NCBI GenBank assembly: GCA_031761875.1
Contig: CP134492.1
Location: forward strand, 1,364,001 to 1,428,000
Length of the DNA stretch: 64,000 bases
Direction of reading: 5' to 3'
DNA from: Bacillaceae bacterium IKA-2
GTDB lineage: Bacteria; Bacillota; Bacilli; Bacillales; Anaerobacillaceae
Shown: positions 769-37,474 of the stretch, one piece after another
Layout: each line of letters opens with the position of its first letter
Numbering within the stretch: position 1 is the stretch's first letter
Made by a program: the position numbers and the translations under genes
The notes under the pieces: generated by a model
Databases searched by the model: none
What the model was told of the DNA's origin: nothing
Seen by the model: only the letters and a program-made list of their open reading frames with translations

Positions 769-1352
769 AAAAAAATTATAAAACATTTGTTCGCTGACAG
801 TATGTTGTCAATTTGGGATGATATGTTAAATAGTAAGTTATACGAAAGAGCAGAACGGGTTGGCTGCAAGTAACTCCTGATCGACAAAGACAATCCACTT
901 ATTTCTTTGAACGTCACTCAGATGCTCTGGTATGGTTTGTGAAATTTCTTAATAATTACTATTGGATATTTGTCTTTTAAAAAGAGAGTTTTTACTAGGA
1001 TTTCACTAATAAGCAATCTAGAAAACTTTTAAAAGACTAAATGGTAATTATGTAAAAAAAAGAGGATTTTGTAGAAATTGGTAGAATGTAGTATAAATAA
1101 GTATACTTTTTTGGGATTAAAAGAAGATTTTAATTAAGAGAAAAGAAGAAAGAACTTCAGTATGTACTCTTTTGGTCACATCTTCATTTCATCATAGTAG
1201 ATGGATGATCTGATGTAATGAAGGTATGCAAGGTAATGGTAAAAAAAATCAGTGTTAAATAATTAAAATTATTTAAAATGCCGATTTATAAATTGAGTTT
1301 CAAAAGATGTAGCATGAAATTAATTATCGAAATTGTTAGGGGAGGTGAATAT
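769..1352 (+). other. 584-bp AT-rich gene-free stretch upstream of cas6
   Basis: No convincing ORF with a ribosome binding site is visible on either strand. The region is AT-rich and holds the candidate cas promoter at 1069-1097, which would leave a 5' UTR of about 250 nt before cas6. I see no second CRISPR array or repeat here. Confidence 0.5.
1069..1097 (+). promoter_or_regulatory. candidate sigma-A promoter of the cas operon
   Basis: TTGTAG at 1069-1074 and TATAAA at 1092-1097 are separated by exactly 17 nt. This is the best sigma-A-like pair I found between the upstream terminator and cas6. It is a sequence match only; no start site is known. Confidence 0.4.
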
Positions 1353-2093
1353 ATGAAACTAGAAGTGATACTAGATACGAAAGAACTTCCATTACATTAC
1401 CACTTTCTGTTTGCAAGCCTAATTAAAAAAGCCGTAGGTTCTGTGTCAAATGAGAAAGTGGAGAGCCTTTATGAGTTTGAGGGGCAACACAATAAAAAGA
1501 GCAAGCCGTTCACGTTCGCTGTATATATGGAGCGATTTAGAAAGACCGGAGAGACCTTTGCGATTGATGGTCATGTAAAGTGGATATTAAGTTCTAGTGA
1601 CGATACGTTTTTACTTTATGTATACAACGGACTTTTGAATGATCGAACCTTTGTATATAAGGATTACACTGTTCACGTGCGGTCTGTTTCTGTCAAAGAG
1701 ACAAAGAAGATCCGCAGTGGAAAAGCATTATTTCAAACGCTGTCACCTATTGCGATTAAATCAAAAGAAGGAGTATTCCTATCAATTGAAGATTGGAGTT
1801 ATCCTGAGGAGTTTCAGTATATATGCAACTTAACTATTGAAAACGCCATAGGAAGATCACTTCATCAACCACTTAAATTTTCCCCTGTAAATATGAAACA
1901 GATCATGGTTCAGTTGAAACATGAGGAATTTAGACGTTTGAATGAAAAGTCAATTCTATATGTGAAAAGCTTTAAGGGATTATTTGAATTAGAGGGGCAT
2001 CCAGAAGACTTAACGCTACTTAGCCAGCTTGGTACATCATTTAGACGCTCACAAGGATTTGGTTGTATTGATCTTATCAAAGAAACGATATAA
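1353..2093 (+). CDS. cas6: CRISPR pre-crRNA endoribonuclease Cas6 (type I-B)
   Basis: Cas6 cleaves the repeat in pre-crRNA, leaving an 8-nt repeat tag on each crRNA. The 246-residue protein has the family's C-terminal glycine-rich loop (GTSFRRSQGFGCIDL, near residues 226-240) and the usual length. The start is ATG 1353, preceded by GGGGAGGTGAATAT; an in-frame ATG at 1278 has no ribosome binding site and would add unrelated residues. A histidine-containing N-terminal segment (LPLHYHFLFASL, near residues 12-23) could supply the catalytic His. First gene of the cas operon; the AAGGAGGTGATA site for cas8b overlaps its end. Confidence 0.9.
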   Translation: MKLEVILDTKELPLHYHFLFASLIKKAVGSVSNEKVESLYEFEGQHNKKSKPFTFAVYMERFRKTGETFAIDGHVKWILSSSDDTFLLYVYNGLLNDRTFVYKDYTVHVRSVSVKETKKIRSGKALFQTLSPIAIKSKEGVFLSIEDWSYPEEFQYICNLTIENAIGRSLHQPLKFSPVNMKQIMVQLKHEEFRRLNEKSILYVKSFKGLFELEGHPEDLTLLSQLGTSFRRSQGFGCIDLIKETI

Positions 2094-2110
2094 GGAGGTG
2101 ATATGACTAG

Positions 2111-3761
2111 ATGACCATTCGAATTGAAAGCTCAGATTGGTTGAAAAATGCAGCTATCGTAGGTTTCATGAGAATATTGGATAAATCAGCTACTCACCCA
2201 CATTATGTGGAAATTGATGAAGAAGATTTAGTTGATTTCGAACAAAAATATTTTCAATATTTTCGTAATACTTACACCAATTTTACTTCCTGGAGCAAGA
2301 TTGTAGAACAGTATTCTTGGATCGATTTACTAGCAGTTGAACAGATGACTGAGAAGGATCTAGCTAATCTAAACAAGATGATTGAGTTAACAAAAAAATG
2401 CCTGACATCTAACAGCTATGTCAATACGTATCCACTTATACCAGATCTAACAATAGATATAAAAGATTTAGGAGCCAAGTTGAAAAAAGTTACAAAGCGT
2501 AAGGCGGAGACCGTACTTGATATTCAGGTAGACATTCAGCTAGTGCGACAACAGCTCCTTACGATAATTGACATACTTAAACAGCCTCAAGTAAAGAAAT
2601 ATATTACATCGAGAAATGTGATTTACGATGTGATTACCCATTATTGGGGTAGTGTTAGCTTTCTCCATGTTAAGGCGAATGTAAAAGATATGTTTGAGAC
2701 GTATCATGACTACTTTCTTGCCCCCTTGCATCGATATTTAGAAGAACAAAAAGATCAAAAAAAATATGCGAAATACAAGTACCAGTGTTCTACCTGTAAT
2801 AACAAGATTGTCTCTGCAACAAGTGCATTTGATCTAACCTGGATTATAAAAACAGGAGTTGATTCTGCTCGAAAGTCTTCTCATTATTGGAATTACCAGT
2901 CTGACATGTTTGTTTGCCCTGTATGTAATTTTCTTTATTCCTGTGTCCCTGCTGGATTTACTTATTTTAAAGGGAAAGGCCTTTTTGTGAATGAAAATTC
3001 TTCTATTAAAACAATGCAAAGTGTAAATCAAGTGTCACTTCAAAAAGTCACGAATTTTGCAGAATTAGAGGAGAAAAGTTACTATCAAATTCTTGATACA
3101 CTTGAGCAAGCTCAAGTTGACAAAATGTCCAAAGAAATCCAAAACATTCAGATTGTTAAGCTTGATAAAGAAAATACCGTCAGACCTTATACCTTCAATA
3201 ACCTGTCTAAAGAGCGTTTAGATATCATGGTGAAAAATAAAAAGCGGATCGAAAAGCTTGTTGGGAAATTTGTAAAGACAGATGAAGGCTTTCTTAATCT
3301 GTATGAAGAGGTTACCTCAAGGATTTATCAGAACCGAAATCAATTTGATTTGTTGTATAAGTTACTCGTCATAGGACGCAAGTCAGACTTTTCAAATACA
3401 CATTATATGTATTTAATATTACTAATTTCAAACAGCAGTCAAAAGGAGGGAAAGAGAATGGATTATCGAAAGATTAACGAGTTTCAGAAACTGGGTATTC
3501 AATTACAGGAAGCCTATAAGGACAGTCCGAATAAACTTCCTGGCATAACTCACCGACTGCTCAATGCAACAAAGGTCAAAAATGAACACCGTTTTACAGA
3601 AACACTTCTCAATGCATATATGTCAAAAGGGAAAAAGGTGCCCCTTGAATTTATTGAATCCTTACATGATCAGTCGCGCTTTCAGACGATTGCGTACGCT
3701 TTTTTACTCGGATTACAAGGCGGAAACGAAAAAAATAAAGGTGACAAGGGGGAAAATGAGA

Positions 3762-3769
<8 letters not shown>
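2111..3769 (+). CDS. cas8b1: type I-B Cascade large subunit Cas8b1 (Cst1 family)
   Basis: This is the large subunit of the type I-B interference complex, which recognises the PAM. The protein is 552 residues with a zinc-ribbon pair: CSTC near residue 225 and CPVC near 267, typical of Cst1/Cas8b1. The start at 2111 follows a strong AAGGAGGTGATA site; an ATG at 2103 opens a frame that stops at once. Its 3' end overlaps the cas7 start by a few bases, implying translational coupling. Cas8 proteins diverge strongly, so the assignment rests on the Cys pairs, size and position between cas6 and cas7. Confidence 0.85.
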
Positions 3770-5389
<1,620 letters not shown>

Positions 5390-5391
5390 GT

Positions 5392-5418
5392 GGGTAGTGA
5401 ATCACTACCCTTTTTTTT
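5392..5418 (+). terminator. perfect intrinsic terminator between cas5 and cas3
   Basis: GGGTAGTGA (5392-5400), one A, TCACTACCC (5402-5410), then eight T. The 9-bp GC-containing stem starts only three nt after the cas5 stop, and cas3 begins 20 nt after the T run. It should separate Cascade gene expression from cas3-cas4-cas1-cas2. Confidence 0.88.
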
Positions 5419-5437
5419 CTATAAAAGGAGTGATCGT

Positions 5438-7690
5438 GTGAGTAATTTATTTTTAGCGAAATCGACTCCACCAGAAACGATTGTCGAACATACGAATCAA
5501 GTTCTGTTCCAATATCAGAGATTAAAATCTTGTTATCCGAAGATCCCCTATGTTAATTGGGATATTTTATACTTGGCTTGTTTATATCATGATCTCGGAA
5601 AAATGAATACGAAGTTTCAGAATAAGGTAAATAAGGAAATTATATTACTAGATCCTCTCACAGATGATAAAGAAGTGCCACACGGTTATTTAAGTCCAGC
5701 TTTTTTACCAATTGACGAATTGATTATTAAATATGACAAGAATTCGCTACGAATCCTCTATCAAACTATTTATTATCACCACCATAGACCAGATATGAAT
5801 TTTGAAAACATCAAAAATACATTAAAGTACGATTTAGATCAATACATGAATGATTTTATTTTTAATAAAATCGAAGTTCCCTTGAAGATAAATAAAAAAT
5901 ATGCAAAATATACGATCAATTGTAGAATTCCTTCCGAATTTGACGATCAAGAGACAATTAACATGTACATAATGACTAAAGGGCTACTTAATCGCTTGGA
6001 TTACGCAGCGAGTGCGGATAGTTCAAATAAGGGAAAGGGAAGTAAGTTGTTAGTTGAAGAGCCCAACTATGATTTACTAGAAAAAACAATAACATATGTT
6101 AACACAATGGGAGTATTAAACGAGCTGCAGGAATATTTGCTAACGCACAGCCATGATAATAATATTGTCGTCGCTTCAACAGGTATCGGAAAAACAGAGG
6201 CTGCTCTTTGCTGGATTGGAAATAACAAAGGGTTCTTTACGTTGCCACTTAAAGTTAGTATTAATGCCATCTACGATCGAGTCAAAAATAAGATAGGTTT
6301 TGAAAAGACCGGGCTTCTTCATTCTGATATGCCTTCAGAATATTTAAAACGATTTGATCAAGGTGCTGGTCAGCCTTTTGATATTACAATGATTGAACGA
6401 ACAAAGCAGCTTTGTATGCCCCTAACCATCTGTACATTGGATCAACTCATTGATTTTGTTTTTAAATATGCAGGATATGAATTAAAACTGGCCACATTAG
6501 CTTATTCGAAACTAGTCATTGATGAAATTCAAATGTATGATCCATCACTTGTGGGATTACTTCTCGTTGGACTTAAGCAAGTCACTGAGTTAGGTGGGAA
6601 ATTCACGATTATGACGGCTACATTTCCACCAATTTTTGAACATTTAATGAAACACAGCCTTCAAATTCCATTTGTAAAGCCAGATAAGCCATTTCTGAAG
6701 TTAAATGAATACGGAGAGCCAATCATACGCCACCGAGTCACAGTGAAAAGTGAAAATTTGAGTAGTGCAGCTGTTTTACCTGAAGTAGATGGAAAAAAGG
6801 TATTAATCATTTTGAATACGGTGAAAGAAGCGCAAAGGATTTATCAGGAGCTGATTAATAAAGATGTCAAGAATGTAAATATGCTTCATAGCCGCTACAT
6901 ACTGAAGGATAGACGTAAAAAAGAGGACGACATTTTAGCAATGGGTAAAAGGGAATGTACTGAAACTGGTGTCTGGGTGACAACGCAAGTCGTTGAAGCG
7001 AGCGTAGATATTGACTTTGACATATTGTTCACAGAACTATCTGACATGAGTGGACTGTTACAGCGGATGGGGCGAGTCTATAGGGGACGAGAGCTTATAG
7101 ACGAGCGCACAAATGTTGTTGTATTCACAGGTGATCCGTTTCCATCGGGGATATCATACGGCAAACGAACAATCATAGATGCAGATGTGTTTCAAGAATC
7201 GAAAAAACAGCTACAATTATTAACTGATCCTCTTATCACAGAGGAAATGAAAATGGAGCTAGTCGACAAAGTTTATAGTCTAGAAGCATTAGAGGAATCA
7301 AATTACTATCGAAAAATAAAAGAAGCAATTAGTACATTTCGGGATATAAAGCCTTACGAGTTTGATAAATCTGATGCTAAATTACGAAATATTCAAACTG
7401 AAACCGTTATACCAAGCAGTGTGTACCGAGAGAACGAAGATCAAATTCAATTTTGTCTGAACTCAATCCAAAGATCGGTTAGCTGGATAGAGAAAATTAA
7501 AGCGTTAAATGAGTTGAAAGAGTATATGGTGTCTATCCCTTTGTATGCTTTCCGTGAAGCTGCAAAAAAAAGCTTTGTTGATCACGAACTGATGATAAGC
7601 AAGTGGGAAAAAATCTGTGTAGTTAACTATTTATATACCTCAGAGACAGGATTAGTATTTAAAGAAGATCAGGAAGTATCATTCTACTAA
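5438..7690 (+). CDS. cas3: CRISPR nuclease-helicase Cas3 (HD + SF2 helicase)
   Basis: Cas3 is recruited by Cascade to nick, unwind and degrade target DNA. The 750-residue protein has an N-terminal HD nuclease domain (HTNQ, then YHDLGK near residue 50, and HHH near 120). An SF2 helicase follows, with Walker A STGIGKTEA (~246), motif II DEIQ (~361), TATFPP (motif III) and QRMGRVYRG (motif VI, ~541). The start is GTG 5438, seven nt after AAAGGAG; GTG 5390 would start inside the terminator hairpin. It ends 6 nt before the cas4 start. Confidence 0.95.
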   Translation: MSNLFLAKSTPPETIVEHTNQVLFQYQRLKSCYPKIPYVNWDILYLACLYHDLGKMNTKFQNKVNKEIILLDPLTDDKEVPHGYLSPAFLPIDELIIKYDKNSLRILYQTIYYHHHRPDMNFENIKNTLKYDLDQYMNDFIFNKIEVPLKINKKYAKYTINCRIPSEFDDQETINMYIMTKGLLNRLDYAASADSSNKGKGSKLLVEEPNYDLLEKTITYVNTMGVLNELQEYLLTHSHDNNIVVASTGIGKTEAALCWIGNNKGFFTLPLKVSINAIYDRVKNKIGFEKTGLLHSDMPSEYLKRFDQGAGQPFDITMIERTKQLCMPLTICTLDQLIDFVFKYAGYELKLATLAYSKLVIDEIQMYDPSLVGLLLVGLKQVTELGGKFTIMTATFPPIFEHLMKHSLQIPFVKPDKPFLKLNEYGEPIIRHRVTVKSENLSSAAVLPEVDGKKVLIILNTVKEAQRIYQELINKDVKNVNMLHSRYILKDRRKKEDDILAMGKRECTETGVWVTTQVVEASVDIDFDILFTELSDMSGLLQRMGRVYRGRELIDERTNVVVFTGDPFPSGISYGKRTIIDADVFQESKKQLQLLTDPLITEEMKMELVDKVYSLEALEESNYYRKIKEAISTFRDIKPYEFDKSDAKLRNIQTETVIPSSVYRENEDQIQFCLNSIQRSVSWIEKIKALNELKEYMVSIPLYAFREAAKKSFVDHELMISKWEKICVVNYLYTSETGLVFKEDQEVSFY

Positions 7691-7696
7691 AAGGGC

Positions 7697-8218
7697 GTGG
7701 GTGATTTGCTTAACGTTGATGAATTAAAAGCTACTGGTTTAAGTGTTCAATATTATCTTGTCTGCCACAGAAAATTATGGTTATCCACTCATCAAATTCA
7801 ATTTGAACAGGATTCTGATAGAGTGTTAGAAGGGAAAGTCTTACATGAACAAACGTACAACAAGCACGGAAACAAAGAAGTATTAATTGATAATCTAATC
7901 AAAATTGATCTTTTTGGTGATTATGTTGGGGAAGTAAAATCAAGTAGTAGAATGCAACAATCCGATAGGATGCAATTACTTTATTATTTGTACGTGTTAA
8001 AGCAGGCTGGAATTAATAAAGTGGGTAAGCTCCATTATCCAAAAGAAAAGAAAGTAGAAGAAGTTCATTTAACGGATGCTGCTGTAAAAGAAGTAGAAAA
8101 AGTGCTAATTGGTATACAAGTAGTTAAAGATAAATCAACACCACCACCATTAATTAAACTGCCATATTGTTCTAAGTGTGCTTATTACTCTTTTTGTTGG
8201 GTAGGTGAGGTAGATTGA
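7697..8218 (+). CDS. cas4: CRISPR adaptation nuclease Cas4 (Fe-S)
   Basis: Cas4 trims prespacers and selects the PAM end during spacer acquisition. The 173-residue protein has the four Fe-S cysteines (C near residue 23 in LVCHRKLW, and the C-terminal YCSKCAYYSFCW cluster), plus the RecB-like core GDYVGEVKSSS with the catalytic ExK. The start is uncertain: GTG 7697 is close to AAAAGGG, and TTG 7706 is a better-spaced alternative that removes three residues. Its TGA overlaps the TTG start of cas1. Confidence 0.93.
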   Translation: MGDLLNVDELKATGLSVQYYLVCHRKLWLSTHQIQFEQDSDRVLEGKVLHEQTYNKHGNKEVLIDNLIKIDLFGDYVGEVKSSSRMQQSDRMQLLYYLYVLKQAGINKVGKLHYPKEKKVEEVHLTDAAVKEVEKVLIGIQVVKDKSTPPPLIKLPYCSKCAYYSFCWVGEVD

Positions 8219-9201
8219 AGGATATTTTTATTTTTAATAATGGGCGATTAAAGAGAACTGATTCTACTATTCAATTTATCGATGCGGATGGTAAGAAGAA
8301 AACGATACCAATTGTACAAGTGGAAAACATACACTTATTTGGAGAAATCGATATGAATACGTCTTTTCTTAATTTACTTACGCAACAGGGAGTTGTGCTA
8401 CATACGTACAATTACTATGGATATTATAGCGGTAGTTTTATTCCAAGAAGCAAGCAAGTTTCTGGTTATATAGATGTAAGGCAAGCTTCTCACATTCTTG
8501 ATCCACAAAAGCGCATATTCATAGCGAGGCAATTTATTTACGGAGCGGTTCACCATATGCTAAAAAACATTCGGCAGCACAAAGATGGATCAGAAGTTTA
8601 TATAAATACGATTGAATCTGTGAGAGTAAATATAGAAAATGCAAAAACTATTCCAGAATTAATGGGTATGGAAGGAAATATTAGGAAGATTTATTTTCAA
8701 TCTTTTAACCATATGATTAAAAACGAATTTTTTCATTTTGTAAAAAGAGAAAAAAGGCCACCGAAAGATCCGATTAATGCGCTGATTTCATTTGGGAATA
8801 GCATAATGTATACAACAGTCCTGTCAGAGCTTTATAAGACCCAGTTAAATCCAACTATGAGTTTTTTACATGAACCTTCCGTAAAAAGATATTCGCTTTC
8901 GCTTGACTTAGCCGAAATATTCAAGCCTCTAATTATTGATGGTTTAATAGTATCACTAATAAATAATCGAGTCATGAAAAGTAACCATTTTGAATATATA
9001 GAGTCTGAAATTTGCTTATTAAATGATGAGGGCAGGAAAATTTTCCTGAAGGCATATGAAGAAAAGCTTTCCAAAACAATAAAGCATCGTACACTAAAAA
9101 GGCAAACGTCCTACAGATTTCTGATTCGTTTAGAGTGCTATAAGTTGATTAAACATATTATTGGAGATACAACATATAAGCCTTTGAAAGCGTGGTGGTA
9201 A
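8215..9201 (+). CDS. cas1: CRISPR integrase Cas1 (type I-B)
   Basis: Cas1 is the catalytic subunit of the Cas1-Cas2 spacer integrase. The protein is 328 residues, beta-stranded N-terminal domain first. The metal-binding triad is plausibly E in MEGNIRKIYFQ, H in FLHEPSVKRYS and D/E in LSLDLAEIFKPLIID. It starts at TTG 8215 inside the cas4 stop, preceded by TAGGTGAGG, so translation is coupled. A single odd integration event attributable to it is visible in the distal array (see 19658-19672). Confidence 0.95.
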   Translation: MKDIFIFNNGRLKRTDSTIQFIDADGKKKTIPIVQVENIHLFGEIDMNTSFLNLLTQQGVVLHTYNYYGYYSGSFIPRSKQVSGYIDVRQASHILDPQKRIFIARQFIYGAVHHMLKNIRQHKDGSEVYINTIESVRVNIENAKTIPELMGMEGNIRKIYFQSFNHMIKNEFFHFVKREKRPPKDPINALISFGNSIMYTTVLSELYKTQLNPTMSFLHEPSVKRYSLSLDLAEIFKPLIIDGLIVSLINNRVMKSNHFEYIESEICLLNDEGRKIFLKAYEEKLSKTIKHRTLKRQTSYRFLIRLECYKLIKHIIGDTTYKPLKAWW

Positions 9202-9205
9202 AATA

Positions 9206-9469
9206 ATGTTCGTCATCATTACCTATGATGTTGGAGAAAAGAGGGTTGGGAAGGTACATAAAATTCTTAAGAAATACTTGCAGTGGACCCAAAATTCCGT
9301 ATTCGAAGGTGAAATAAAAGAGGGTAAATTGAAAGAATGTCTGGGTGAATTAATGCCAATAGTTAATAAAGTGTACGATTCATTGTATGTATACAAAGTT
9401 TCGAATCCAAAAAACATTAAAAAAATCATTTATGGTGTAGAAAAAGATTTTGAAGAGATGTTTCTGTAA
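9206..9469 (+). CDS. cas2: CRISPR integrase subunit Cas2
   Basis: Cas2 is the structural dimer in the Cas1-Cas2 complex. The 87-residue protein begins MFVIITYDVGEKR, with the conserved Asp at the end of the first strand, and has the ferredoxin-like fold length. ATG 9206 is four nt after the cas1 stop, so it is probably translated by coupling; no strong ribosome binding site is visible. It is the last cas gene, and the leader starts directly after it. Confidence 0.95.
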   Translation: MFVIITYDVGEKRVGKVHKILKKYLQWTQNSVFEGEIKEGKLKECLGELMPIVNKVYDSLYVYKVSNPKNIKKIIYGVEKDFEEMFL

Positions 9470-9652
9470 ATGCCGTAAAGGTCATTTTATCTAAAAGTAT
9501 CTTAAACCCTTCGTATGACTGTGTTAATGACTATTAATAACGAACTTTATAAACACACACTGGAGGTTTGCTGCAAAATAGTGTAAAATATGGATTATAA
9601 AAATCAATCAATCCCTTGATACATAAGGGTTTTTAGAGTCTTGATTTGAGGG
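9470..9652 (+). promoter_or_regulatory. CRISPR leader
   Basis: This AT-rich stretch of about 183 bp lies between cas2 and the first repeat, so new spacers enter here. It contains a short hairpin CCCTT-GATACAT-AAGGG (9613-9629) followed by five T, and ends with GTCTTGATTTGAGGG (9638-9652) directly before repeat 1. That last 15-mer occurs once more, inside the distal array. I see no clean -35/-10 pair with standard spacing, so the pre-crRNA promoter position is unresolved. Confidence 0.75.
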
Positions 9653-12600
9653 GTTTTATAGCAACTATGTGGAATGTAAATGTAATAACTTCACTCATAT
9701 TAAAACGTGGTATACGGTTTTATAGCAACTATGTGGAATGTAAATAGAAAAGCCCCAGACATACCGGAATAGGTTTTCCAGTTTTATAGCAACTATGTGG
9801 AATGTAAATTAGTGTAAGCCCGGCGGTTCCGTTTAAGGTGTCCGGTTTTATAGCAACTATGTGGAATGTAAATAAATACGATCGACTGATACAACAGGGG
9901 GGCAGGCCAGTTTTATAGCAACTATGTGGAATGTAAATCACGGTACTATGGGAAACGGCAAGCCGTGGAAGGGCTAGTTTTATAGCAACTATGTGGAATG
10001 TAAATGAAGATAGGCTTTAGCTTTCGTCCCAGGGCTACGGGTTTTATAGCAACTATGTGGAATGTAAATTTAGATATATACCCCCGTTCCGCAATAGAAT
10101 TCGGTGTTTTATAGCAACTATGTGGAATGTAAATACGAAATACTGGTCGTTGTAAATAAGATCGCCTTTCCGTTTTATAGCAACTATGTGGAATGTAAAT
10201 GATACATGGACGCACGATCATACTCCATATGGAATTGTTTTATAGCAACTATGTGGAATGTAAATAACAATGGCCCGGTTGGATCATATATAAAGGATTT
10301 CTGTTTTATAGCAACTATGTGGAATGTAAATGTTAATATCGTTGATGAAGCCATGGCCGCGACAACGTTTTATAGCAACTATGTGGAATGTAAATTCGGT
10401 TGGTAAAACAGCGTTTGCAATTGAAGTTTGCGTTTTATAGCAACTATGTGGAATGTAAATATGGGAGCCGTTAGGACGACACGAGCGCAAAAGTACGTTT
10501 TATAGCAACTATGTGGAATGTAAATTAACTCACGCGGCGGCGCCTCATCGTTCGGCCCTACCGTTTTATAGCAACTATGTGGAATGTAAATGGAAAGTAT
10601 CGGACTTATACGGGAACCAGCGACGCCGTTTTATAGCAACTATGTGGAATGTAAATGTAGTAAGCGGCGGCGAATTCAACAAGTTATACAACGTTTTATA
10701 GCAACTATGTGGAATGTAAATCACGATACTATGGGAAACGGCAAGCCGTGGAAGGGCTAGTTTTATAGCAACTATGTGGAATGTAAATCTGAAATGGCGA
10801 TCTTCATAGCAGCCCGCGCCGCTAGTGTTTTATAGCAACTATGTGGAATGTAAATACTATACAGTTCCCCCGCACCAGTCCTCACCTGTACGTTTTATAG
10901 CAACTATGTGGAATGTAAATTTTAAAAGTTTATAGTCTAATACTACAAATAATTTAGTTTTATAGCAACTATGTGGAATGTAAATGTATTTATGGCAGCC
11001 GTCATTGCAAGCAGGAGTTCCGAGTTTTATAGCAACTATGTGGAATGTAAATTTTGAAATGGTTGGCGCTTTTTTTGAAATGTTACGAGGTTTTATAGCA
11101 ACTATGTGGAATGTAAATAAAATGGTATAGAGTAATGCTGACAAACTTCTCGATGTTTTATAGCAACTATGTGGAATGTAAATATAATTCTTTAACCTCT
11201 GCCATTTTTACGGCCTCCCTGTTTTATAGCAACTATGTGGAATGTAAATGATGCAAATACCCTTTTGGCCTTAATCTTTTGTAACGTTTTATAGCAACTA
11301 TGTGGAATGTAAATCTTGTAATAGCAACGCTGGTTGATCTGTCCTTACACCGTTTTATAGCAACTATGTGGAATGTAAATTAATCATATCTTGTCCAATT
11401 ATACATGATTAATTAGGTTTTATAGCAACTATGTGGAATGTAAATGGTATTCCGTCATCTACAGCGTAAAATTCTTTCAATGTTTTATAGCAACTATGTG
11501 GAATGTAAATCATCATCGAGCGACGCTGTAATGTGCAACGTTATCGTTTTATAGCAACTATGTGGAATGTAAATGCAGGAATTACTGCAGAAGCCACAAC
11601 ATGGGTTGGAGTTTTATAGCAACTATGTGGAATGTAAATTCTGCTGATTGATGAGCATCCCTTGTGCTATCGTGTTTTATAGCAACTATGTGGAATGTAA
11701 ATTGTCATGGCAAGCGTCATTCAGAGACTAATTATTTTTGTTTTATAGCAACTATGTGGAATGTAAATCCTTTTGACTCGGGAAACATCCACGGCGTTTT
11801 CCTTGTTTTATAGCAACTATGTGGAATGTAAATTGAGTAGTAGCGTAATCCCCTGCATCGACTGCTTCTGTTTTATAGCAACTATGTGGAATGTAAATTC
11901 TGTTTGCTCGTATAGCTTGCCTATTTTAGACTTTGTTTTATAGCAACTATGTGGAATGTAAATAAATAGTTTGAACCTGGCAACCTTTGCAACGTCGCGT
12001 TTTATAGCAACTATGTGGAATGTAAATTTGTATGTTATGCCCTCGATAGCCATTAGTAAGCAACGTTTTATAGCAACTATGTGGAATGTAAATTAAAGTG
12101 TCTGACCTGCTAAAATAGTGTCCGTCCCTGTTTTATAGCAACTATGTGGAATGTAAATGATGATGCCCTTCTGCTAACGCTTCAAGCGACTGTTTGTTTT
12201 ATAGCAACTATGTGGAATGTAAATTGAATGGATCACTCTCGCTCATTGACGGCTTACTCAGTTTTATAGCAACTATGTGGAATGTAAATTTCATCTATAA
12301 GGCGTTCCAAGTAGTTCATACGTGGTTTTATAGCAACTATGTGGAATGTAAATTAAATATCGCCATTCCGAGTATGTATTCTCTTGTTGTTTTATAGCAA
12401 CTATGTGGAATGTAAATTAGAAATACCTACAAGTGGACAGTTTATGTTTGGGTTAGTTTTATAGCAACTATGTGGAATGTAAATTGTTTAAGTCATCCTC
12501 TGATACGATATTTGCGCTATCGTTTTATAGCAACTATGTGGAATGTAAATAATAATGTATCCGGTCTAATGAACTTGCTCATTTGTGTTTTATAGCAACT

Positions 12601-13494
12601 ATGTGGAATGTAAATTCTTTTATTAAATCATTGGTACAAAAACTTTATAATCGTTTTATAGCAACTATGTGGAATGTAAATAAAAACTTTTTAAACCAAG
12701 GTGTCCATGTACTGACAGTTTTATAGCAACTATGTGGAATGTAAATCTTGGATCTCCTGGGTACATAAGGCCGTTACTGTATGGGTTTTATAGCAACTAT
12801 GTGGAATGTAAATATTAATGATGATGAATTAAATAAGACTCTCACGATTATGTTTTATAGCAACTATGTGGAATGTAAATCGTGATAATTGTGATAGTGC
12901 TACAACGGTAATTTTTGTTTTATAGCAACTATGTGGAATGTAAATTCGTATCTGTCGCGACTTCGTATATAGGGATATCGTGTTTTATAGCAACTATGTG
13001 GAATGTAAATAACAGAGCTGCAGGAACTACTAAAGTTTGGTATTAGTTTTATAGCAACTATGTGGAATGTAAATGTACATGATGAGATAATCTGTCAGGT
13101 ACCTAGAAAGTTTTATAGCAACTATGTGGAATGTAAATTGTAATTGATTACCGTCACCAATTACTTTTAAATCGGTTTTATAGCAACTATGTGGAATGTA
13201 AATCTTACAACTTACAGTGTGAGTATGACCGCTAACTGTGTTTTATAGCAACTATGTGGAATGTAAATATACTTACTACTGGTGTAATACATATAAGAAT
13301 GGTTGTTTTATAGCAACTATGTGGAATGTAAATCCCGAAATGATGTTTGATTTTGATTTTCTAGCTATGTTTTATAGCAACTATGTGGAATGTAAATAGA
13401 CATTTAAACTCGTCACCTTGATAAACGGCATAATGTTTTATAGCAACTATGTGGAATGTAAATAAAAGCACCCGTTAAGGATGCTTATACTACT
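9653..13494 (+). CRISPR. type I-B CRISPR array, leader-proximal block (59 repeats)
   Basis: I count 59 copies of a 29-nt repeat starting GTTTTATAGCAAC, with ATGTGG in the middle and ending AATGTAAAT, first at 9653 and last at 13435-13463. I saw no substitutions in them. Spacers are 34-38 nt. The final spacer (13464-13494) is cut by the IS21 insertion and continues with GCTT at 19391-19394. The repeat is of the type seen with I-B systems of Firmicutes. Spacers 5 and 17 differ at one base, and spacer 13 has a homologue in the distal block. Short ORFs across the array are repeat artefacts. Confidence 0.98.
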
Positions 13495-13545
13495 TGTATT
13501 TGTCAACTCAAAAGCGGTCCACGAATCAGTTGAAAAAAGGTCCAC

Positions 13546-14292
13546 TTATTTAGTTGGTTTTAGCCATGACATTGTCTCTTCAAATCGGTGACTTACTTCT
13601 CGTGAAATATCTAAGATATGTGATTTGTGAGCAAGTCTATCTACAATTGCACCAGTAAGCATCGGGTCTTTAAAAATCTCTTCCCAGCGATCAAAAGCCA
13701 AGTTTGTTGTTATGATTATTGATCCTTTATCGTTTCTATTTGATAATAAATTAAATAGTATTTCACAACCAATTTTGTCAAATGATACGTATCCCAGTTC
13801 ATCTAAAACGACAAGACTGTACTTTTCAAATTTGGTTTTATATTGCGATAGTTTGCTTTCACTCATTGCTTCTTTTAACTCTATTATTAAGTTAGGTACA
13901 GAGATAAACAATACACTTTTGCCTTCCAAACACGCCTTAATACCAAGCCCAATACTATAATGTGATTTCCCGCAGCCAGGAGATCCTATTAAGATTATAT
14001 TTTCTTTATTTTCAATGAACTGCAACGTTTCTAGTTCTTCGAATTTCGGTATAAATTTCTTATGGTACTTACTCTTGTCGAAGTCTTCTAAGTACTTGTT
14101 AAGAGGGAATTTAGCCCTTCTGAGTCTATGTTTTAAACCATTCTCAAGCCTTAGTTCTAATTCTCTTTCGAGTAGACGACTTATCAGCTCTCGGTGGGTC
14201 ATGTTTGTATGGTTTGCTTCATCAAGAAGCATTTGATAATTGGTTTTTATATAGGGTAATTTTAGTATATGGGCCATTTCTTGTATTTGCAT
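13546..14292 (-). CDS. istB: IS21-family helper ATPase IstB
   Basis: IstB is the AAA+ ATPase that activates the IstA transposase and selects targets. The 248-residue protein shows Walker A GSPGCGKSHYSIGLG (~residues 103-117), Walker B LVVLDELGYV and sensor IIITTNLAF. ATG 14292 lies directly after the istA TAA (TAA-ATG) with GGAGGTGG upstream, the usual coupled istA-istB arrangement. The gene is intact, but its partner istA is interrupted, so the IS copy is probably immobile unless IstA is supplied in trans. Confidence 0.92.
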   Translation of the reverse strand: MQIQEMAHILKLPYIKTNYQMLLDEANHTNMTHRELISRLLERELELRLENGLKHRLRRAKFPLNKYLEDFDKSKYHKKFIPKFEELETLQFIENKENIILIGSPGCGKSHYSIGLGIKACLEGKSVLFISVPNLIIELKEAMSESKLSQYKTKFEKYSLVVLDELGYVSFDKIGCEILFNLLSNRNDKGSIIITTNLAFDRWEEIFKDPMLTGAIVDRLAHKSHILDISREVSHRFEETMSWLKPTK

Positions 14293-14973
14293 TTATTCCA
14301 CCTCCGAGAAACATAATTCGTTATATCTAGATACTTGCCTTGTAGCGATGTTGCTAAGTGCAGTTTTATCTATGTGCATAGATGGAATAATATCGATATG
14401 AGATTTATTGTATGTTTCTAGAATCAATAGTATTTCTTCGATTGGTTTATCATCATTTTCTTGAATGATCTCTATGAATTTTTTCTTGTTTCTGCTAAAA
14501 TTAGTATCATAGATGGCTTTTAACCTTGGTATGCTTTTTAGAGCGTGGGAGTTCTTGATTGCACCTGGTTTTTTGTTTAATGAGTTTAAGTAATGTTTAA
14601 TTTTAATACTTATCTCGTTAGTACCATCTATTTTTTTGTGTTCACAAACGAGTATGTTGTTTGAATAAAAGCCTATTGTGTCGTAATATTTCTTGATTGT
14701 TATTAAGCGTCCTACAAGATACTCCGGTACTGAATAGTGGTTGTTATCAACTCGTACAAAACTATATTTATTTGGTTTTTGCACTGTAACTGTTGCAAGA
14801 TCAAGCTTTGGTTTTGTAGGTTGAAGATGTTTTATTTCTTCAGAAATAGTGCTGTCTTTATTGAGTTCTATCAATATAGTATTCAAGTATTCACGTGCAT
14901 CATCGAATGTCTTAAACTTATAAGTTAACGCAAATGCTTTGTTCCTAATTATCTTCACGCTGCCCTCCACATG
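14293..14973 (-). pseudogene. istA: istA transposase, 3' half (split by RIT insertion)
   Basis: This is the C-terminal 226 codons of the IS21 DDE transposase, from the His codon at 14973-14971 through the stop before istB. The apparent start at 14970 is just the GTG valine codon of the KGHVEGSVKI junction. Joining position 18474 to 14973 (minus strand) restores one frame of 501 codons from the first possible ATG, or about 488 from the likelier start at 19259. As it stands the fragment has no start or ribosome binding site of its own. Confidence 0.9.
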
Positions 14974-14999
14974 ACCCTTCTAATGTAAAGCTTTGCATT

Positions 15000-15050
15000 A
15001 GAAGGGTAATGAAAAGTATATGATAATGTAAAGTAAGGCTGTTAGATAAC
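15000..15050 (+). repeat. RIT left terminal inverted repeat (51 bp)
   Basis: The sequence from AGAAGGGTAATG to GTTAGATAAC is the reverse complement of 18431-18481 with a single mismatch (C/T in GTTATYTAAC). It contains AATGTAAAGTAA, a motif repeated inverted about 50 bp further in on each side, which are candidate recombinase-binding sites. Confidence 0.92.
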
Positions 15051-15095
15051 TATAAACAAAGTGATTCTAGTTGTTTTACTTTACATTTTCAATGG

Positions 15096-15135
15096 CTATA
15101 TTTAATATAGGCGAGGTCGCCTACGTTAAATATAG
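15096..15135 (+). repeat. 40-bp palindrome abutting the first RIT recombinase ribosome binding site
   Basis: Two 19-nt arms (15096-15114 and 15117-15135, 17 of 19 pairing) are separated by two G. The 3' arm runs into the GGAGG of the first recombinase gene. In RNA it would form a long hairpin just 5' of the ribosome binding site; in DNA it could be an operator or binding site for the recombinases. Confidence 0.75.
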
Positions 15136-15147
15136 GAGGTTATGATT

Positions 15148-16395
15148 ATGGAACAAAAATATCAAACATTTGAACAACTGTCCTCAGAAGTAGTTAAATC
15201 CCTTCGGGATATGTCCTATTCCGAATCAAGGATAAGCCAATATCGTTCCGCGTGGCAAAAACTGGCTACTTTTATGGAAAACAATCAGATTGAGTATTAT
15301 TCAGCGTCAGTAGGTGGAGCATTTATAGCTGACTTTATTGGTACTGGGAAATACGAGGAATTTAGCCATTGGGAAAAGAGCATAATCCGGTGTGTGGATG
15401 TTCTAACTGAATTTCAGTCTACAGGAACGTTCCAATACAGAAGGGCAAAGAAATCCTACCAATTTTATGGTTGCATCGGTAATCCTATGGTGGATTTCCT
15501 TAATCACCGAAAATCTTTGGGTATTACAGAAAATACGCTTGGTCATTACCGATTAAATCTTCATCGCTTTCTTAGTTTTTTTAATGAAGAAGGAGTCATG
15601 GAAACCGAAGCAATTAAAAAACAACACATTTTAGGATTTGTGAATCAGCTTGGTTTTTATACACCTGCAACGCGCCACAGCATGCTTACCACTTTACGTG
15701 GGTTTATGAGATATCTACATGACAATGGGTATACAGGGATTGACTTTTCATACCTAATTCCAAAAGACAATTACAAGAAGCAATGTAAACTACCCACGAC
15801 ATATACGAAAAATGAAGTTGAATCATTAATCAATACTGTTGACAGAAGTAGCCCAAAAGGGAAGCGTGATGCTGCTATGATACTATTGGCTGCACGATTG
15901 GGATTGAGGGCTTCTGACATCTGTCTGTTGAAGTTTGAAAACATACACTGGGAAAAGAATACAATTACACTTGTTCAACAAAAGACTAAAAATAAGATTG
16001 AGCATCCACTTTTAATAGAAATAGGAGAGGCTATTATCGATTATCTGAAGTATGGACGGCCTAAATCTGATCTTCCTTATGTCTTCCTACATGCAATCCC
16101 GCCATATAACTGCCTAAATAGATCGACTTTGCATAGCATTGTTACTTTTTATCTCCGTCGTGCTGGCATTAAAAACATAACAGAAAAGAAACATGGTCCT
16201 CATGCTTTGAGGCACAGTCTTGCTGGGCAACTACTGGAACAAAAAATACCCATCCATGTTATATCAGAAGTGCTAGGTCACAAGAATACCGAAAGCACAA
16301 AAACTTATTTACGAATAGACTTAACATCTTTGAGCCAATGCGCATTAGATGTTCCACTCTTAAAAACGCCATTTTATGCCAAGGAGGTGGAATGA
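15148..16395 (+). CDS. RIT tyrosine recombinase 1
   Basis: This is the first of three tandem tyrosine recombinases. The protein of about 415 residues has an N-terminal core-binding (SAM-like) domain and a C-terminal catalytic domain with R in ARLGLRASD, HALRH (HxxR box), H in VLGHKNTEST and the nucleophile Y in TYLRI. I chose ATG 15148, eight nt after GGAGG; ATG 15142 is in frame but too close. Its TGA overlaps the start of recombinase 2 (ATGATG). Members of RIT trios differ in size and probably act together. Confidence 0.9.
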   Translation: MEQKYQTFEQLSSEVVKSLRDMSYSESRISQYRSAWQKLATFMENNQIEYYSASVGGAFIADFIGTGKYEEFSHWEKSIIRCVDVLTEFQSTGTFQYRRAKKSYQFYGCIGNPMVDFLNHRKSLGITENTLGHYRLNLHRFLSFFNEEGVMETEAIKKQHILGFVNQLGFYTPATRHSMLTTLRGFMRYLHDNGYTGIDFSYLIPKDNYKKQCKLPTTYTKNEVESLINTVDRSSPKGKRDAAMILLAARLGLRASDICLLKFENIHWEKNTITLVQQKTKNKIEHPLLIEIGEAIIDYLKYGRPKSDLPYVFLHAIPPYNCLNRSTLHSIVTFYLRRAGIKNITEKKHGPHALRHSLAGQLLEQKIPIHVISEVLGHKNTESTKTYLRIDLTSLSQCALDVPLLKTPFYAKEVE

Positions 16396-17366
16396 TGCCG
16401 AACTATTGTGGTATTTATGCTGGTTTAATCGAACAGTACATTGATTTCAAAAGAAACCTCGGTTACAAGTTTGTTGATGCCACTTACACACTTTCGTTAT
16501 TTGACAGATTTACAATAGATAATGCCGTATTAAAACTCGGTCTATCAAAGGAGATTGTTGATAAATGGAGTGAGAAGCGTCCAAATGAATCAGACAAGAC
16601 ACGTTATGCGAGGATTCATTATATTGCAAAATTTTCCGCCTATTTAAATGATATGGGATATCCATCACATATACCGAGATTGCCTAAAAAGTACAGCAGT
16701 ACGTTTGTACCACATATTTTCTCGAAAAAGGAAGTGAATGCATTCTTCGATGCATGTGATACGCTTAAAGTTAATAGACGATTTGAAACAACTGTGTATG
16801 TACTCCCCGCTTTATTTAGAATGCTATATGGCTGTGGCATCCGTATCAGCGAAGCGTTATCCCTAACATGTAAGGATGTTGATCTTGATGCAAAAAATAT
16901 TATTGTCAGGGAAACGAAAAACGGCAAAGACCGAATACTCCCATTATCTGAAACACTAACTGAGGTGTGTATTCAATATAGGAATGTTCGTCCCGGCAAA
17001 TATGAACCGAAAGGTTATTTTTTTATCAAGAACAATGGGCAAAAATGTAATGCCAAGGCAATATATGAATGGTTCAGAAAAATACTCTGGAATGCAGGAA
17101 TTCCACATGGTGGGAAGGGTTTTGGCCCAAGAATGCATGACTTTCGTCACACTTTCAGTGTACACTCTCTTGTGAAAATGTCAGAAGCTGGGCTAGATTT
17201 ATACTACTCACTCCCAATATTATCAAAATATCTTGGGCATCAGTCATTAGAGGCTACAGATAAGTATGTAAGGCTAACATCTGACATGTACCCTGATTTA
17301 ATTAGAGAAGTAGATAACGTTTGTGCCTATGTATTTCCGGAGGTTGACCATTATGAAGCCGACTGA
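16392..17366 (+). CDS. RIT tyrosine recombinase 2
   Basis: This second recombinase of the trio is about 324 residues. Catalytic residues visible: R in YGCGIRISEAL, HDFRH, H in LGHQSLEATDK and Y in DKYVRL. It starts at ATG 16392 (or 16395) just after AAGGAGGTGG, overlapping the stop of recombinase 1. In-frame sequence further upstream to 16338 belongs to the first gene. It overlaps recombinase 3 by 14 bp, as expected for a translationally coupled RIT operon. Confidence 0.9.
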   Translation: MMPNYCGIYAGLIEQYIDFKRNLGYKFVDATYTLSLFDRFTIDNAVLKLGLSKEIVDKWSEKRPNESDKTRYARIHYIAKFSAYLNDMGYPSHIPRLPKKYSSTFVPHIFSKKEVNAFFDACDTLKVNRRFETTVYVLPALFRMLYGCGIRISEALSLTCKDVDLDAKNIIVRETKNGKDRILPLSETLTEVCIQYRNVRPGKYEPKGYFFIKNNGQKCNAKAIYEWFRKILWNAGIPHGGKGFGPRMHDFRHTFSVHSLVKMSEAGLDLYYSLPILSKYLGHQSLEATDKYVRLTSDMYPDLIREVDNVCAYVFPEVDHYEAD

Positions 17367-18372
17367 TTTCTCTCGCTATCTGACAGGATTTCTTACAAAA
17401 TACCTGCCAGGAGAAATGGGGTTCAGTATAAATACGATTGCCTCTTATAGAGACACATTTGTACTTTTCCTTACATTTATCAAGGATAAAAAAGGAATAA
17501 AAACAAATTCTCTGACGCTGGGCATGATTAATAAGGAAATGGTTATTCACTTTCTTGACTGGATAGAAACAGAGCGTGGCTGTAGTACAGCCACAAGGAA
17601 CGTCCGCCTTGCGGCATTACACTCTTTCTTCCAATATCTCCAGTATCAGAGCCCCGATAATCTTTTGGAATGGCAGAGAATCCTTGGAATCCGGGTTAAG
17701 AAAACAGAAACAAAATCAATCAGTTACCTAACGCTTAATGGGATCAGACTACTTTTGGAAATGCCTGATCAGTCAACTAAAATAGGACGAAGAGATCTTG
17801 CTCTTTTGTCAATTATGTATGAAAGCGGTGGAAGAGTACAGGAAATCATTGACCTCACTCCGTCACAAGTACGTTTTGACAGACCATGTACTGTAAAGTT
17901 AATTGGTAAGGGGAATAAAGCCCGGATAGTCCCTCTGATGGATGCTCCGTTAGATTTATTAAATCGATATATGGATGAGCAGGGGCTGTTAAGTTTGTCA
18001 GCAAACATGTACCCATTGTTCTGTAACAAAAGAGGAGAAAAACTGACCCGGGCAGGGGTGAATTACATACTAGATAAATATGCACGCAAGGCTCGTATTA
18101 AAGATCAAATATTAATCCCAGAACGATTTAGCTGTCATTGTCTGAGACATTCAAAAGCTATGCACTTACTCCAAGCAGGAGTTAATCTCATATACATCCG
18201 TGATATACTAGGTCACCGTTCTGTCCAAACAACTGAAATTTACGCTAAGGTAGATTCAAAACAAAAAAGAGAAGCAATTGAAAAAGCATATACAGATGTT
18301 GTACCAAAAGGTGCACCTTCTTGGCAAAAAAGTGGAGATTTATTGGAATGGCTAAAAAGATTTGATAAATAA
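17353..18372 (+). CDS. RIT tyrosine recombinase 3
   Basis: This third recombinase is about 339 residues. Catalytic residues: R in YESGGRVQEI, HCLRH, H in LGHRSVQTTE and Y in EIYAKV. ATG 17353 follows GGAGGTTGACC and lies inside the end of gene 2. All three proteins keep a full R-H-R-H-Y set, so the element may still be active. The stop is 58 bp before the right inverted repeat. Confidence 0.9.
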   Translation: MKPTDFSRYLTGFLTKYLPGEMGFSINTIASYRDTFVLFLTFIKDKKGIKTNSLTLGMINKEMVIHFLDWIETERGCSTATRNVRLAALHSFFQYLQYQSPDNLLEWQRILGIRVKKTETKSISYLTLNGIRLLLEMPDQSTKIGRRDLALLSIMYESGGRVQEIIDLTPSQVRFDRPCTVKLIGKGNKARIVPLMDAPLDLLNRYMDEQGLLSLSANMYPLFCNKRGEKLTRAGVNYILDKYARKARIKDQILIPERFSCHCLRHSKAMHLLQAGVNLIYIRDILGHRSVQTTEIYAKVDSKQKREAIEKAYTDVVPKGAPSWQKSGDLLEWLKRFDK

Positions 18373-18430
18373 AATAGTGTTTGCGTTGCAGATAATGTAA
18401 AGTAAAACAGCGAGGGATCCTTTACTTACG

Positions 18431-18481
18431 GTTATTTAACAGCCTTACTTTACATTATCATATACTTTTCATTACCCTTCT
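18431..18481 (-). repeat. RIT right terminal inverted repeat (51 bp)
   Basis: This is the inverted partner of 15000-15050. Its outer end ACCCTTCT is also the start of the interrupted istA sequence, so the element boundary cannot be set more precisely than this octamer. Confidence 0.92.
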
Positions 18482-19259
18482 CGTTTCCACTGAAACAATT
18501 AGTGACGTTGATATCGAATCCGTAGTAGAGTGACAATTTTAGCAAATTCTCATTGAGGACTTTTTCAGTTTTACCTATGAATTTTGATACTACATTTCTC
18601 ATATTGTCGTACACAATCTCTGAATAAACGCCACCTAACATATCGAAGAAACGCACATGAGAATCCATAAAGACGTCTTGCTTTTGATTCTTATATAAAT
18701 ACGCCCATCTGAAATCAGCAGCTGGTGAAGATAGTACAGCTAGATGATAGGTATTGATCTCCCCGTTTATTTCTAACTTCACTTCGCCAAAATCATATTC
18801 AAGTCTTTGCCCTAAATCATATGATTGTTTAATAAAGCATTCCTTAGGTTTGTTTCTTTTTTCTCTGATTTTATTTGTAATAGTTGTATATCCAATATCA
18901 AACTTTTCATTGACTAGCATTTGGTGAATTTGCAAATTAGTCAGCTGTTGTTTATGTCGACCTAACTCTTTACACTTTTCAGATTCACTCTCTAGGATTT
19001 CGTCTAATCTGGTATCGATTTCTGCTGTGTACTTTCTTGGCTTTCTATTTTGAGCATTATACTTTGGTGCCTCGCATATTTTTTCTTGTACTTCTTGTAC
19101 TTCTTTTTTATTAACGTCTAAGGCATTCAACAGAGTATTGTTCTTCTGGTACTCATTCCAATAGATTGCGACTGTTTTCCGATTGATGTTTAAAAGCTTG
19201 GCAGCTTTTCTATTGGATACACCTTGCTGCTTTAGTTTTATTATTGCATGTTTGTCCAT
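18474..19259 (-). pseudogene. istA: istA transposase, 5' half (split by RIT insertion)
   Basis: This N-terminal part of the IS21 transposase has a helix-turn-helix (GVSNRKAAKLLNINRKTVA) followed by the beginning of the DDE core (EYDFGEVKLE; later IVYDNM, second Asp). The likely start is ATG 19259 with GGAG upstream; an in-frame ATG at 19298 is possible. After FSGNEKG the frame enters the RIT end and stops at 18450 after seven foreign residues, so the catalytic domain is truncated. Confidence 0.9.
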
Positions 19260-19390
19260 TATCTCAATCACTCCATCCCACCCCTTTACTGCCATCATAA
19301 CAGTAAGAGATTAGTGTTAAAGTACTGGACCGTTTTTCAATTGATATTATTCTATTAATGGGCCACTTTTAGAGTATCATAAACACTACT

Positions 19391-21069
19391 GCTTGTTTTA
19401 TAGCAACTATGTGGAATGTAAATCCCTAAACAATGACCAGCAACGTATTTTAACTCTCTGTTTTATAGCAACTATGTGGAATGTAAATTAATAATCAAAA
19501 GTGACAACTGCTTTCTTTTTCATGGTTTTATAGCAACTATGTGGAATGTAAATGATGGTAAAACGAGGAGAAATGATGTAAAGAGTATCGCGTTTTATAG
19601 CAACTATGTGGAATGTAAATACAGGAAAAGCGATTTTCTTTGTACAAGGTCAATATCGTCTTGATTTGAGGGGTTTTATAGCAACTATGTGGAATGTAAA
19701 TTCTGTAATGGTTAGTAAATCATTAACCTCATTCCTAGTTTTATAGCAACTATGTGGAATGTAAATTTATTTCGGTGGTGCGAATAGACGACTTGACGCA
19801 GGTTTTATAGCAACTATGTGGAATGTAAATGCGATACCATCCACAGATAAGAGAGCAGAATGCTGAGTTTTATAGCAACTATGTGGAATGTAAATCAGCA
19901 CACGGTGGGCAATGATTAAGACGGTACAAGGTGTTTTATAGCAACTATGTGGAATGTAAATTATACATAAAAACGTGCAGCTCTATTTTAAATCGGCGTT
20001 TTATAGCAACTATGTGGAATGTAAATCTAAAACTTGCCTCCGGGTTCTTCATTTTCATACCGTTTTATAGCAACTATGTGGAATGTAAATAATTATTAAC
20101 CGTTTGCCGATCGACTCCCCATCTTGTGTTTTATAGCAACTATGTGGAATGTAAATAACAAACAGCTAACCTACAATAGAATATTCAATTTTGTTTTATA
20201 GCAACTATGTGGAATGTAAATAGCGGAGTCGTGCAGCTATGCTACAACCCTAATTTGTTTTATAGCAACTATGTGGAATGTAAATAAAGAGACAACCAGA
20301 GAATACATACTTGGTATGGCGAGTTTTATAGCAACTATGTGGAATGTAAATCAAGGGTCGTTTCTTATGATTATACAGCGATTTACAAAGTTTTATAGCA
20401 ACTATGTGGAATGTAAATATGGGAGCAGTTAGGACGACTCAAAAACAGAAGTATGTTTTATAGCAACTATGTGGAATGTAAATAACTATTACAGACAACA
20501 ACCCGAAATTACCGGATTATGTTTTATAGCAACTATGTGGAATGTAAATACAGATTTTGCAGCAGTAGCCGTTGGACAGGAAGAGTTTTATAGCAACTAT
20601 GTGGAATGTAAATACGTTTTCGACGCTATCGCCTAACTCCTCAACTATCGTTTTATAGCAACTATGTGGAATGTAAATTATTATGCTGATAACATCCGAG
20701 CGCTCTTGTTCATTGTTTTATAGCAACTATGTGGAATGTAAATAAAAGATCGGAGACTCTCAGTAGAGGTATAAAATCTGTTTTATAGCAGCTATGTGGA
20801 ATGTAAATAAAAGTCATTCTTTCAGACTAGCACCGGATCAATTAAGTTTAATAACAACTATGTGGAATGTAAATCCAGATATGGAAATGTCAGCCGCTTT
20901 CCCTAGAATAGTTTTATAGCAATTATGTGGAATGTAAATAAATTATCCGTATTCGTATTAACGCCTTGCCCAAATGTTTTATATCAACTATGCTGAATGT
21001 AAATAATTACAAAAGTATATGTTTGGTATTGTAGTAGAAAGTTTTATAGCAACTATGTGGAATGTAAAT
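19391..21069 (+). CRISPR. type I-B CRISPR array, leader-distal block (26 repeats)
   Basis: This is the continuation of the array after the insertion: GCTT completes the split spacer, then repeats run from 19395 to 21041-21069. I count 26 repeats. Repeats at 20780 (1 change), 20846 (2), 20911 (1) and 20976 (3) are degenerate, but the last one at 21041 is perfect. One inter-repeat interval (19621-19672) is 52 nt instead of about 36. Expression from the leader would have to cross 5.9 kb of inserted DNA. Confidence 0.97.
19658..19672 (+). repeat. internal copy of the leader end in front of a repeat
   Basis: GTCTTGATTTGAGGG is identical to the last 15 nt of the leader (9638-9652) and, as there, abuts a repeat. 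The remaining 37 nt of the interval (19621-19657) is a normal spacer length. This fits a past integration in which the leader-side attack fell 15 nt upstream of the repeat, so a 44-bp unit was duplicated. Confidence 0.85.
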
Positions 21070-35259: not shown

Positions 35260-35322
35260 CAGCCAAATAACTAGTCTTCTGCTCTTAATTTGTAAACGTG
35301 AGGATAAAAATGAGGTGATTAA

Positions 35323-36195: not shown

Positions 36196-36223
36196 GTACT
36201 GATGTCTTGAAAGGAAGTTATAA

Positions 36224-37378: not shown

Positions 37379-37474
37379 GAGCGACCAACTTATATAGAAA
37401 ATCGGTATTGAGATAAGTTAGAAAATTTATCATGAAAAAGGTTTTTAGTCACGTACAATTTAATTAAAAATATA

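Follow-up and report, generated by a model that had tools for sequence, protein, structure and literature searches.

The sections of the literature drawn on here describe spacer integration as a reaction in which the 3′ ends of a prespacer are joined to opposite strands, one at either end of repeat 1, after which the DNA between them is copied by gap repair (PMC4081107, PMC6895254). In types I-E, I-B and II-A the second cut is reported to be placed by ruler elements within the repeat, and ruler experiments in types I-E and I-B showed that arrays with mutated repeats give an altered repeat duplication (PMC6895254). Off-target integration by Cas1-Cas2 has been observed in vitro for type II-A, where the off-target sites resemble leader-repeat junctions and prefer a G, and where mutants deprived of specificity at the first site are no longer specific at the second (PMC6895254). 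Ectopic integration in vivo is described for CRISPR3 of Streptococcus thermophilus (PMC7999890). A natural irregularity is on record for a group B Streptococcus isolate, in which CRISPR1 carries, at its leader end, an additional 26 nt of partial repeat that the authors took as an incorrect tandem duplication (PMC5641575). As far as the portions of the literature searched extend, integration errors are known mostly from mutated arrays, in vitro assays and phage-challenge experiments. Neo-CRISPR loci in E. coli were reportedly described by Nivala in 2018, and Wang is said to have found, in 2016, altered repeat duplication in repeat-mutant arrays of Haloarcula hispanica.

We analyzed a stretch of 64,000 nt from Bacillaceae bacterium IKA-2 (hereafter the window), which carries a cas operon, a leader and a long CRISPR array (Table 1). 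The original prediction had assigned the system to type I-B, and this was borne out by matches over the cut-off to TIGR03641 and TIGR02585 and by the gene order cas6-cas8b-cas7-cas5-cas3-cas4-cas1-cas2. Among the seven genomes of the genus, which are the whole family sample and of which four are at least 90% complete and little contaminated, type I-B cas1 was found in the source genome itself and in none of the six others, so relatives can neither date the event described below nor serve to test a fusion of arrays. The array repeat, GTTTTATAGCAACTATGTGGAATGTAAAT, is perfect in 81 of the 85 copies; the exceptions are repeats 81-84, close to the leader-distal end. All 85 genome matches to the repeat (up to three mismatches, 4.42 Mb) fall in this one array, and at that threshold a second array with the same repeat is absent from the genome.

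Table 1. Coordinates of the type I-B locus and of the parts of the 52-nt interval, numbered from the first nucleotide of the window.
Feature	Position	Strand	Basis or remark
type I-B cas operon	1278..9469	+	NCBIfam matches; PF09706 for the large subunit
cas6	1278-2093	+	NCBIfam match over cut-off
cas8b-like large subunit	2111-3769	+	PF09706
cas7/cst2	ORF 3564-4643	+	TIGR02585 over cut-off
cas5	4640-5389	+	Cas5b TIGR01895 87.2 bits, below cut-off 96.7; general Cas5 model over cut-off
cas3	5390-7690	+	NCBIfam match over cut-off
cas4	7697-8218	+	NCBIfam match over cut-off
cas1	8215-9201	+	Cas1b TIGR03641 436.8 bits, cut-off 304.1
cas2	9206-9469	+	NCBIfam match over cut-off
leader	9470..9652	+	between cas2 and repeat 1, sequence
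leader end, 15 nt, source of the copy	9638..9652	+	sequence
CRISPR array, 85 repeats of 29 nt	9653..21069	+	repeat search, genome-wide
IS21-family element	13495-19385		interrupts interval/spacer 59 of the array
repeat 63, upstream of the scar	19592..19620	+	repeat search
37-nt spacer, in-frame homology to a phage major capsid protein gene	19621..19657	+	phage homologues
15-nt leader-end copy (scar)	19658..19672	+	identity to 9638-9652
repeat 64; with the preceding 15 nt, the duplicated 44-bp unit	19673..19701	+	sequence

The array is split by the IS21-family element. Read from the ends, a 5-bp duplication (CTACT) lies at the element borders, and spacer 59 measures 35 nt without the insertion; with the element removed, the locus is a single array with 84 spacers. 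The element encodes istB (13546-14292) and two apparent pieces of istA (14293-14970 and 18450-19298), between which three tandem tyrosine recombinases (15142-18372) lie on the opposite strand. The arrangement of the three recombinases is like that of a "recombinase in trio" element. Two pairs of spacers are alike elsewhere in the array: spacers 5 and 17 differ in a single base, and spacers 13 and 75 are 78% alike and both start with ATGGGAGC, which looks as though the start of one phage gene had been taken up on two occasions, each time from a different, diverged phage.

One interval, between repeats 63 and 64, measures 52 nt. The other 82 uninterrupted intervals are 34 nt (1), 35 nt (16), 36 nt (39), 37 nt (17) or 38 nt (9) long, so the interval is oversized as predicted. 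The span first proposed for it, 19621-19701, starts correctly and ends too far downstream, since 19701 takes in the next repeat; the interval itself ends at 19672. As predicted, the interval closes with the same 15 nt that end the leader; the identity is exact (both read GTCTTGATTTGAGGG), and a repeat abuts both copies. At position -16 the two places differ, with C at 19657 in the scar and A at 9637 in the leader, and the copied stretch is therefore at most 15 nt. Exact matches to GTCTTGATTTGAGGG in the window are limited to these two places. A chance match was rejected, as a search with up to two mismatches found three matches where 0.09 were expected, the third having two mismatches. A 35-nt pattern of the leader-repeat junction (up to three mismatches) was found at the leader end and at the scar and nowhere else in the whole 4.42-Mb genome. 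The repeats that flank the scar are perfect on both sides. We also rejected an assembly artefact, as no adapter-like sequence was seen in the interval and its 37 nt are of capsid origin, and a still-visible tandem duplication, as the array holds zero exact duplicate spacers.

The remaining 37 nt were compared with phage genes. The first 36 nt of the interval translate in frame as TGKAIFFVQGQY, for which a phage counterpart reads, for example, LNKAIFFVQGQY. The back-translated pattern matched one viral contig (L133), whose gene encodes a major head protein (PHROG 10, E 4e-44) that reads LNKAIFFVQGQYIAAIAGG at the spacer-matching place; a relative of this part of the capsid protein is encoded in 128 phage records. 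For the nucleotide comparison 28 IMG/VR loci were taken, and the counts given for 20 capsid loci refer to 19 of those plus a GenBank phage (L134). L133 was left out because it is the same contig as L136, L151 because its placement was false, and L156-L163 because they gave 19-21 matches and were mostly placed away from the capsid site. At the 20 loci 24-31 of the 37 nt were identical to the spacer. The trinucleotide directly 5′ of the match was CCN in 19 of them and ACA in one, and position 38 was T in 18, C in one and A in one, so that the G of the scar occurred in 0/20. One locus among those left out (L158, 20/37), which appears well placed, is flanked 5′ by AAA and carries an A at position 38. 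Mean identity over 22 rows, which include the misplaced L151 as well as L133 from the same contig as L136, was 0.73 over nt 1-37 and 0.30 over nt 38-52. A single true spacer of 52 nt was rejected, since the capsid homology stops at about nt 37.

CCN is among the protospacer-adjacent motifs (PAMs) given for type I-B of Clostridioides difficile in the part of the literature consulted (PMC8406132). At the capsid loci this 5′ CCN encodes a conserved proline, and its reading as a PAM rests on diverged homologues, of which L158 has AAA. The original argument that the 37-nt remainder is spacer-sized is now joined by phage homology and by the 5′ CCN, which place the two spacer ends independently. An exact protospacer was not found in phages or plasmids, nor in viral contigs searched with one 24-nt exact pattern, and a 29-nt pattern (up to three mismatches) matched nothing but the array itself in 397 genomes of the order; for this reason the spacer ends were deduced from diverged homologues. 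Judged by these alignments, the 37 nt would best be read as a full-length spacer that was selected in the usual way and is directed at a phage capsid gene, and the 15 nt as lying outside the protospacer. Queries from the array also aligned piecewise, at about 70% identity, to Clostridioides phage phiCDKH02 (PP767789.1, ~35095-37413), as if that phage carried a CRISPR array with a similar repeat.

We consider it highly probable that the interval stems from a single acquisition in which the leader-side cut fell inside the leader at -15 and the distal cut was correct. The leader-side transesterification would have fallen just 5′ of the G in TTTTTAGA/GTCTTGAT, at a distance of 15 nt upstream from repeat 1, and the other spacer end would have joined that repeat at its usual distal border. 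Filling in the resulting 44-bp stagger would duplicate the 15 leader nt together with the repeat, rather than the repeat alone, and yield leader, repeat, 37-nt spacer, 15 nt of leader and repeat in one step. Such a product restores an intact leader-repeat junction, at which later spacers, including the 62 that are now upstream of the scar interval, could be added normally. The CCN side of the spacer adjoins the upstream repeat, and from this orientation and the known polarity of integration it would be the non-PAM 3′ end that attacked the leader. Leader-side attack with a 44-bp duplication was the core of the original prediction, and the anatomy agrees with it in this one instance: a 37-nt capsid-like spacer is followed by the 44-bp unit, which is also found at the end of an intact leader upstream. 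The array contains no exact spacer duplicates, as one-step integration predicts. We infer that Cas1-Cas2 made the cut, and in a single step.

Next, we examined how closely the -15 site resembles a leader-repeat junction. A matrix built from 89 leader-repeat junctions of other arrays was used to score 151 leader positions; the true junction ranked 1st, its 1-bp shift 2nd, the site at -24 3rd and the site at -15 4th. With a matrix of 159 junctions, -15 ranked 4th within 60, 100 and 150 nt and 6th within 250 nt. Its score in this matrix was reached at 759 of 62,036 plus-strand window positions outside array junctions (1.2%), and at 1,868 of 127,960 positions when both strands were counted without that exclusion. 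The -24 site (AAGG/GTTTTTAGAG) is the best cryptic junction of the leader and outscores the true junction in the 159-junction matrix. When sites were ranked simply by their identity to the junction of the window itself, -15 came eighth with 8 of 16 positions, the sites at -23 and -14 having 11 and 10, respectively. The -15 site starts with a G. We concluded that -15 is junction-like by matrix rank, with -24 scoring higher, and that site resemblance alone would have predicted another site than -15. Positions 9613-9634 of the leader, CCCTTGATACATAAGGGTTTTT, form a terminator-like inverted repeat, in which GGGTTTTT doubles as the -24 cryptic junction; motifs of the type CCTTGA...AAGG(G)TTTTT lie at about the same position in the leaders of some relatives.

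The main rival is template switching followed by spacer loss. A template switch or microhomology slippage would have carried replication from GTTTT, with which the repeat behind the capsid spacer starts, to the GTCTT that lies at -15 in the leader; the segment from the 15 leader nt and the repeat through to the spacer would have been tandemly duplicated, and the second spacer copy later lost by repeat-repeat recombination. GT is common to both sides of the breakpoint, the resemblance of GTCTT to GTTTT would place the breakpoint at the spacer border, and deletion of spacers between repeats is described as a known process in the text consulted (PMC8047081). This course requires two events, however, and it would pass over the far longer homology offered by the 29-nt repeats in favor of 2 nt; moreover, no exact spacer duplicate is left and the next spacer is absent from the similar pairs. 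We therefore regard it as unlikely.

A leader remnant could also have come from a second array, which the original prediction had named as the alternative. Repeat 64 and everything after it would then be an array that had lost all but the last 15 nt of its leader by deletion and had been joined to the trailer end of another. Two arrays lie near cas genes at several of the surveyed loci (e.g., L011, L013, and L025), and the two leaders of L100 look identical over the 60 nt compared, so that a match of 15/15 does not speak against a fusion. Such a deletion would, however, have had to stop at the very last 3′ base of a full-length spacer and leave no remnant of a repeat. The repeats flanking the scar are perfect, degenerate ones being found at the far end only, and the genome has one array with this repeat; the fused second array thus found no support, and we hold it to be very improbable. 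A hybrid prespacer of 52 nt, made of phage DNA and leader DNA in an abortive half-site event, excised and then integrated normally, would also account for 37 + 15 nt. Its excision would have had to stop precisely on the final base of the leader, and it would exceed the longest of the other uninterrupted spacers of the array by 14 nt; of the explanations considered, we give this one the least credence. Leader-side attack at -15 remains our preferred explanation.

The original prediction called for other leader scars to be sought. We surveyed 221 cas1-adjacent loci, comprising the best 80 of 277 relatives, 140 further regions (some of which carry other CRISPR types) and the window. Once 10 duplicate arrays and 4 non-CRISPR-like repeats had been removed, 224 arrays remained, which together hold 8,761 intervals. 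Interval ends were matched base by base against the flanking sequence at either end of the array, taken as leader; only exact matches were scored, so scars with mismatches, or with a leader that has since changed, would be missed. At least 20 nt of flank was available in 16,659 of the 17,522 comparisons, some loci ending before the leader, and the window's own scar stands outside the tally, since the IS element splits the array in two there. No other leader scar was found among the 8,761 intervals of the 224 arrays by the exact leader suffix search, and no longer-than-normal interval beyond the window's scar ended in an exact suffix of at least 7 nt of a true leader. Eleven interval ends in the 224 arrays matched a flank exactly over at least 7 nt. 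Five belong to L252, where the repeat edge seems wrongly called, one belongs to L019, which looks like a non-CRISPR GC-rich repeat, those of L054 and L216 reflect a whole 36-nt spacer repeated in the flank, and those of L050, L169, and L203 are 7-8 nt long in intervals of normal length.

Intervals exceeding their array median by 7-30 nt numbered only five, namely the window scar and one each in L088, L124, L126, and L220. The oversized intervals of L126 and L220 are without explanation. In the L124 array at ~11934, interval 43, of 54 nt, has a 38-nt stretch and then 16 nt from the start of the repeat, and a full repeat comes next; it is another kind of repeat-duplication irregularity. Interval 4 of the L088 array at 11737 has 50 nt and contains a stretch that looks like a Nextera transposase adapter; this interval is probably an assembly artefact in a public contig.

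The scar is best classed as a rare form of off-register spacer integration, and one that can be read cleanly. The kind of integrase error is known, and its position inside the leader was not found described in the parts of the literature searched. Likewise, no leader copy in a natural array was found in those parts, the scope of which did not extend to Wang 2016, Wei 2015, Nivala 2018, and Santiago-Frangos 2021. The scar is a natural error product in which spacer, leader copy and repeat can each be assigned by separate evidence, and both cut positions can for that reason be read almost to the base. The order of spacer, leader suffix and repeat also offers a simple signature for counting such errors, the count here being one. 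The scar is relevant to the question of what places the second cut in type I-B systems, in which the need for a correct first cut seen in type II-A appears not to hold. We tentatively suggest, at somewhat less than even confidence, that the two type I-B cuts are set independently, the repeat placing the distal cut and the cryptic junctions of the leader (-15, -24) being usable as starts. If so, the scar might be a natural and inherited demonstration of decoupling, in which the stagger grew from 29 to 44 bp.

Compared with the off-target and ectopic integration reports, the scar likewise points to an attack by Cas1-Cas2 off the leader-repeat junction, often made at a resembling site. The events in the sections of those reports consulted took place at internal repeats, in spacers and at plasmid sites; here, in contrast, the first cut would lie inside the leader and the second at the correct repeat end, and the product has been inherited in a natural type I-B array. 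The group B Streptococcus case is likewise a natural irregularity at the leader-repeat border, but the extra sequence there is partial repeat and not leader, and the part of the report consulted mentions no spacer between the copies. In repeat-mutant arrays, as here, a loss of register between the cuts alters the unit that is duplicated. There, however, the repeats were mutated and the distal cut shifted, whereas here leader and repeat are natural and the leader-side cut would have moved. In the type II-A mutants the second site is lost with the first; here the second cut is right though the first would be wrong, which counts against our explanation. The ruler within the repeat, as far as it is described in the text consulted (PMC6895254), agrees with a distal cut that is correct when the first cut is 15 bp off.
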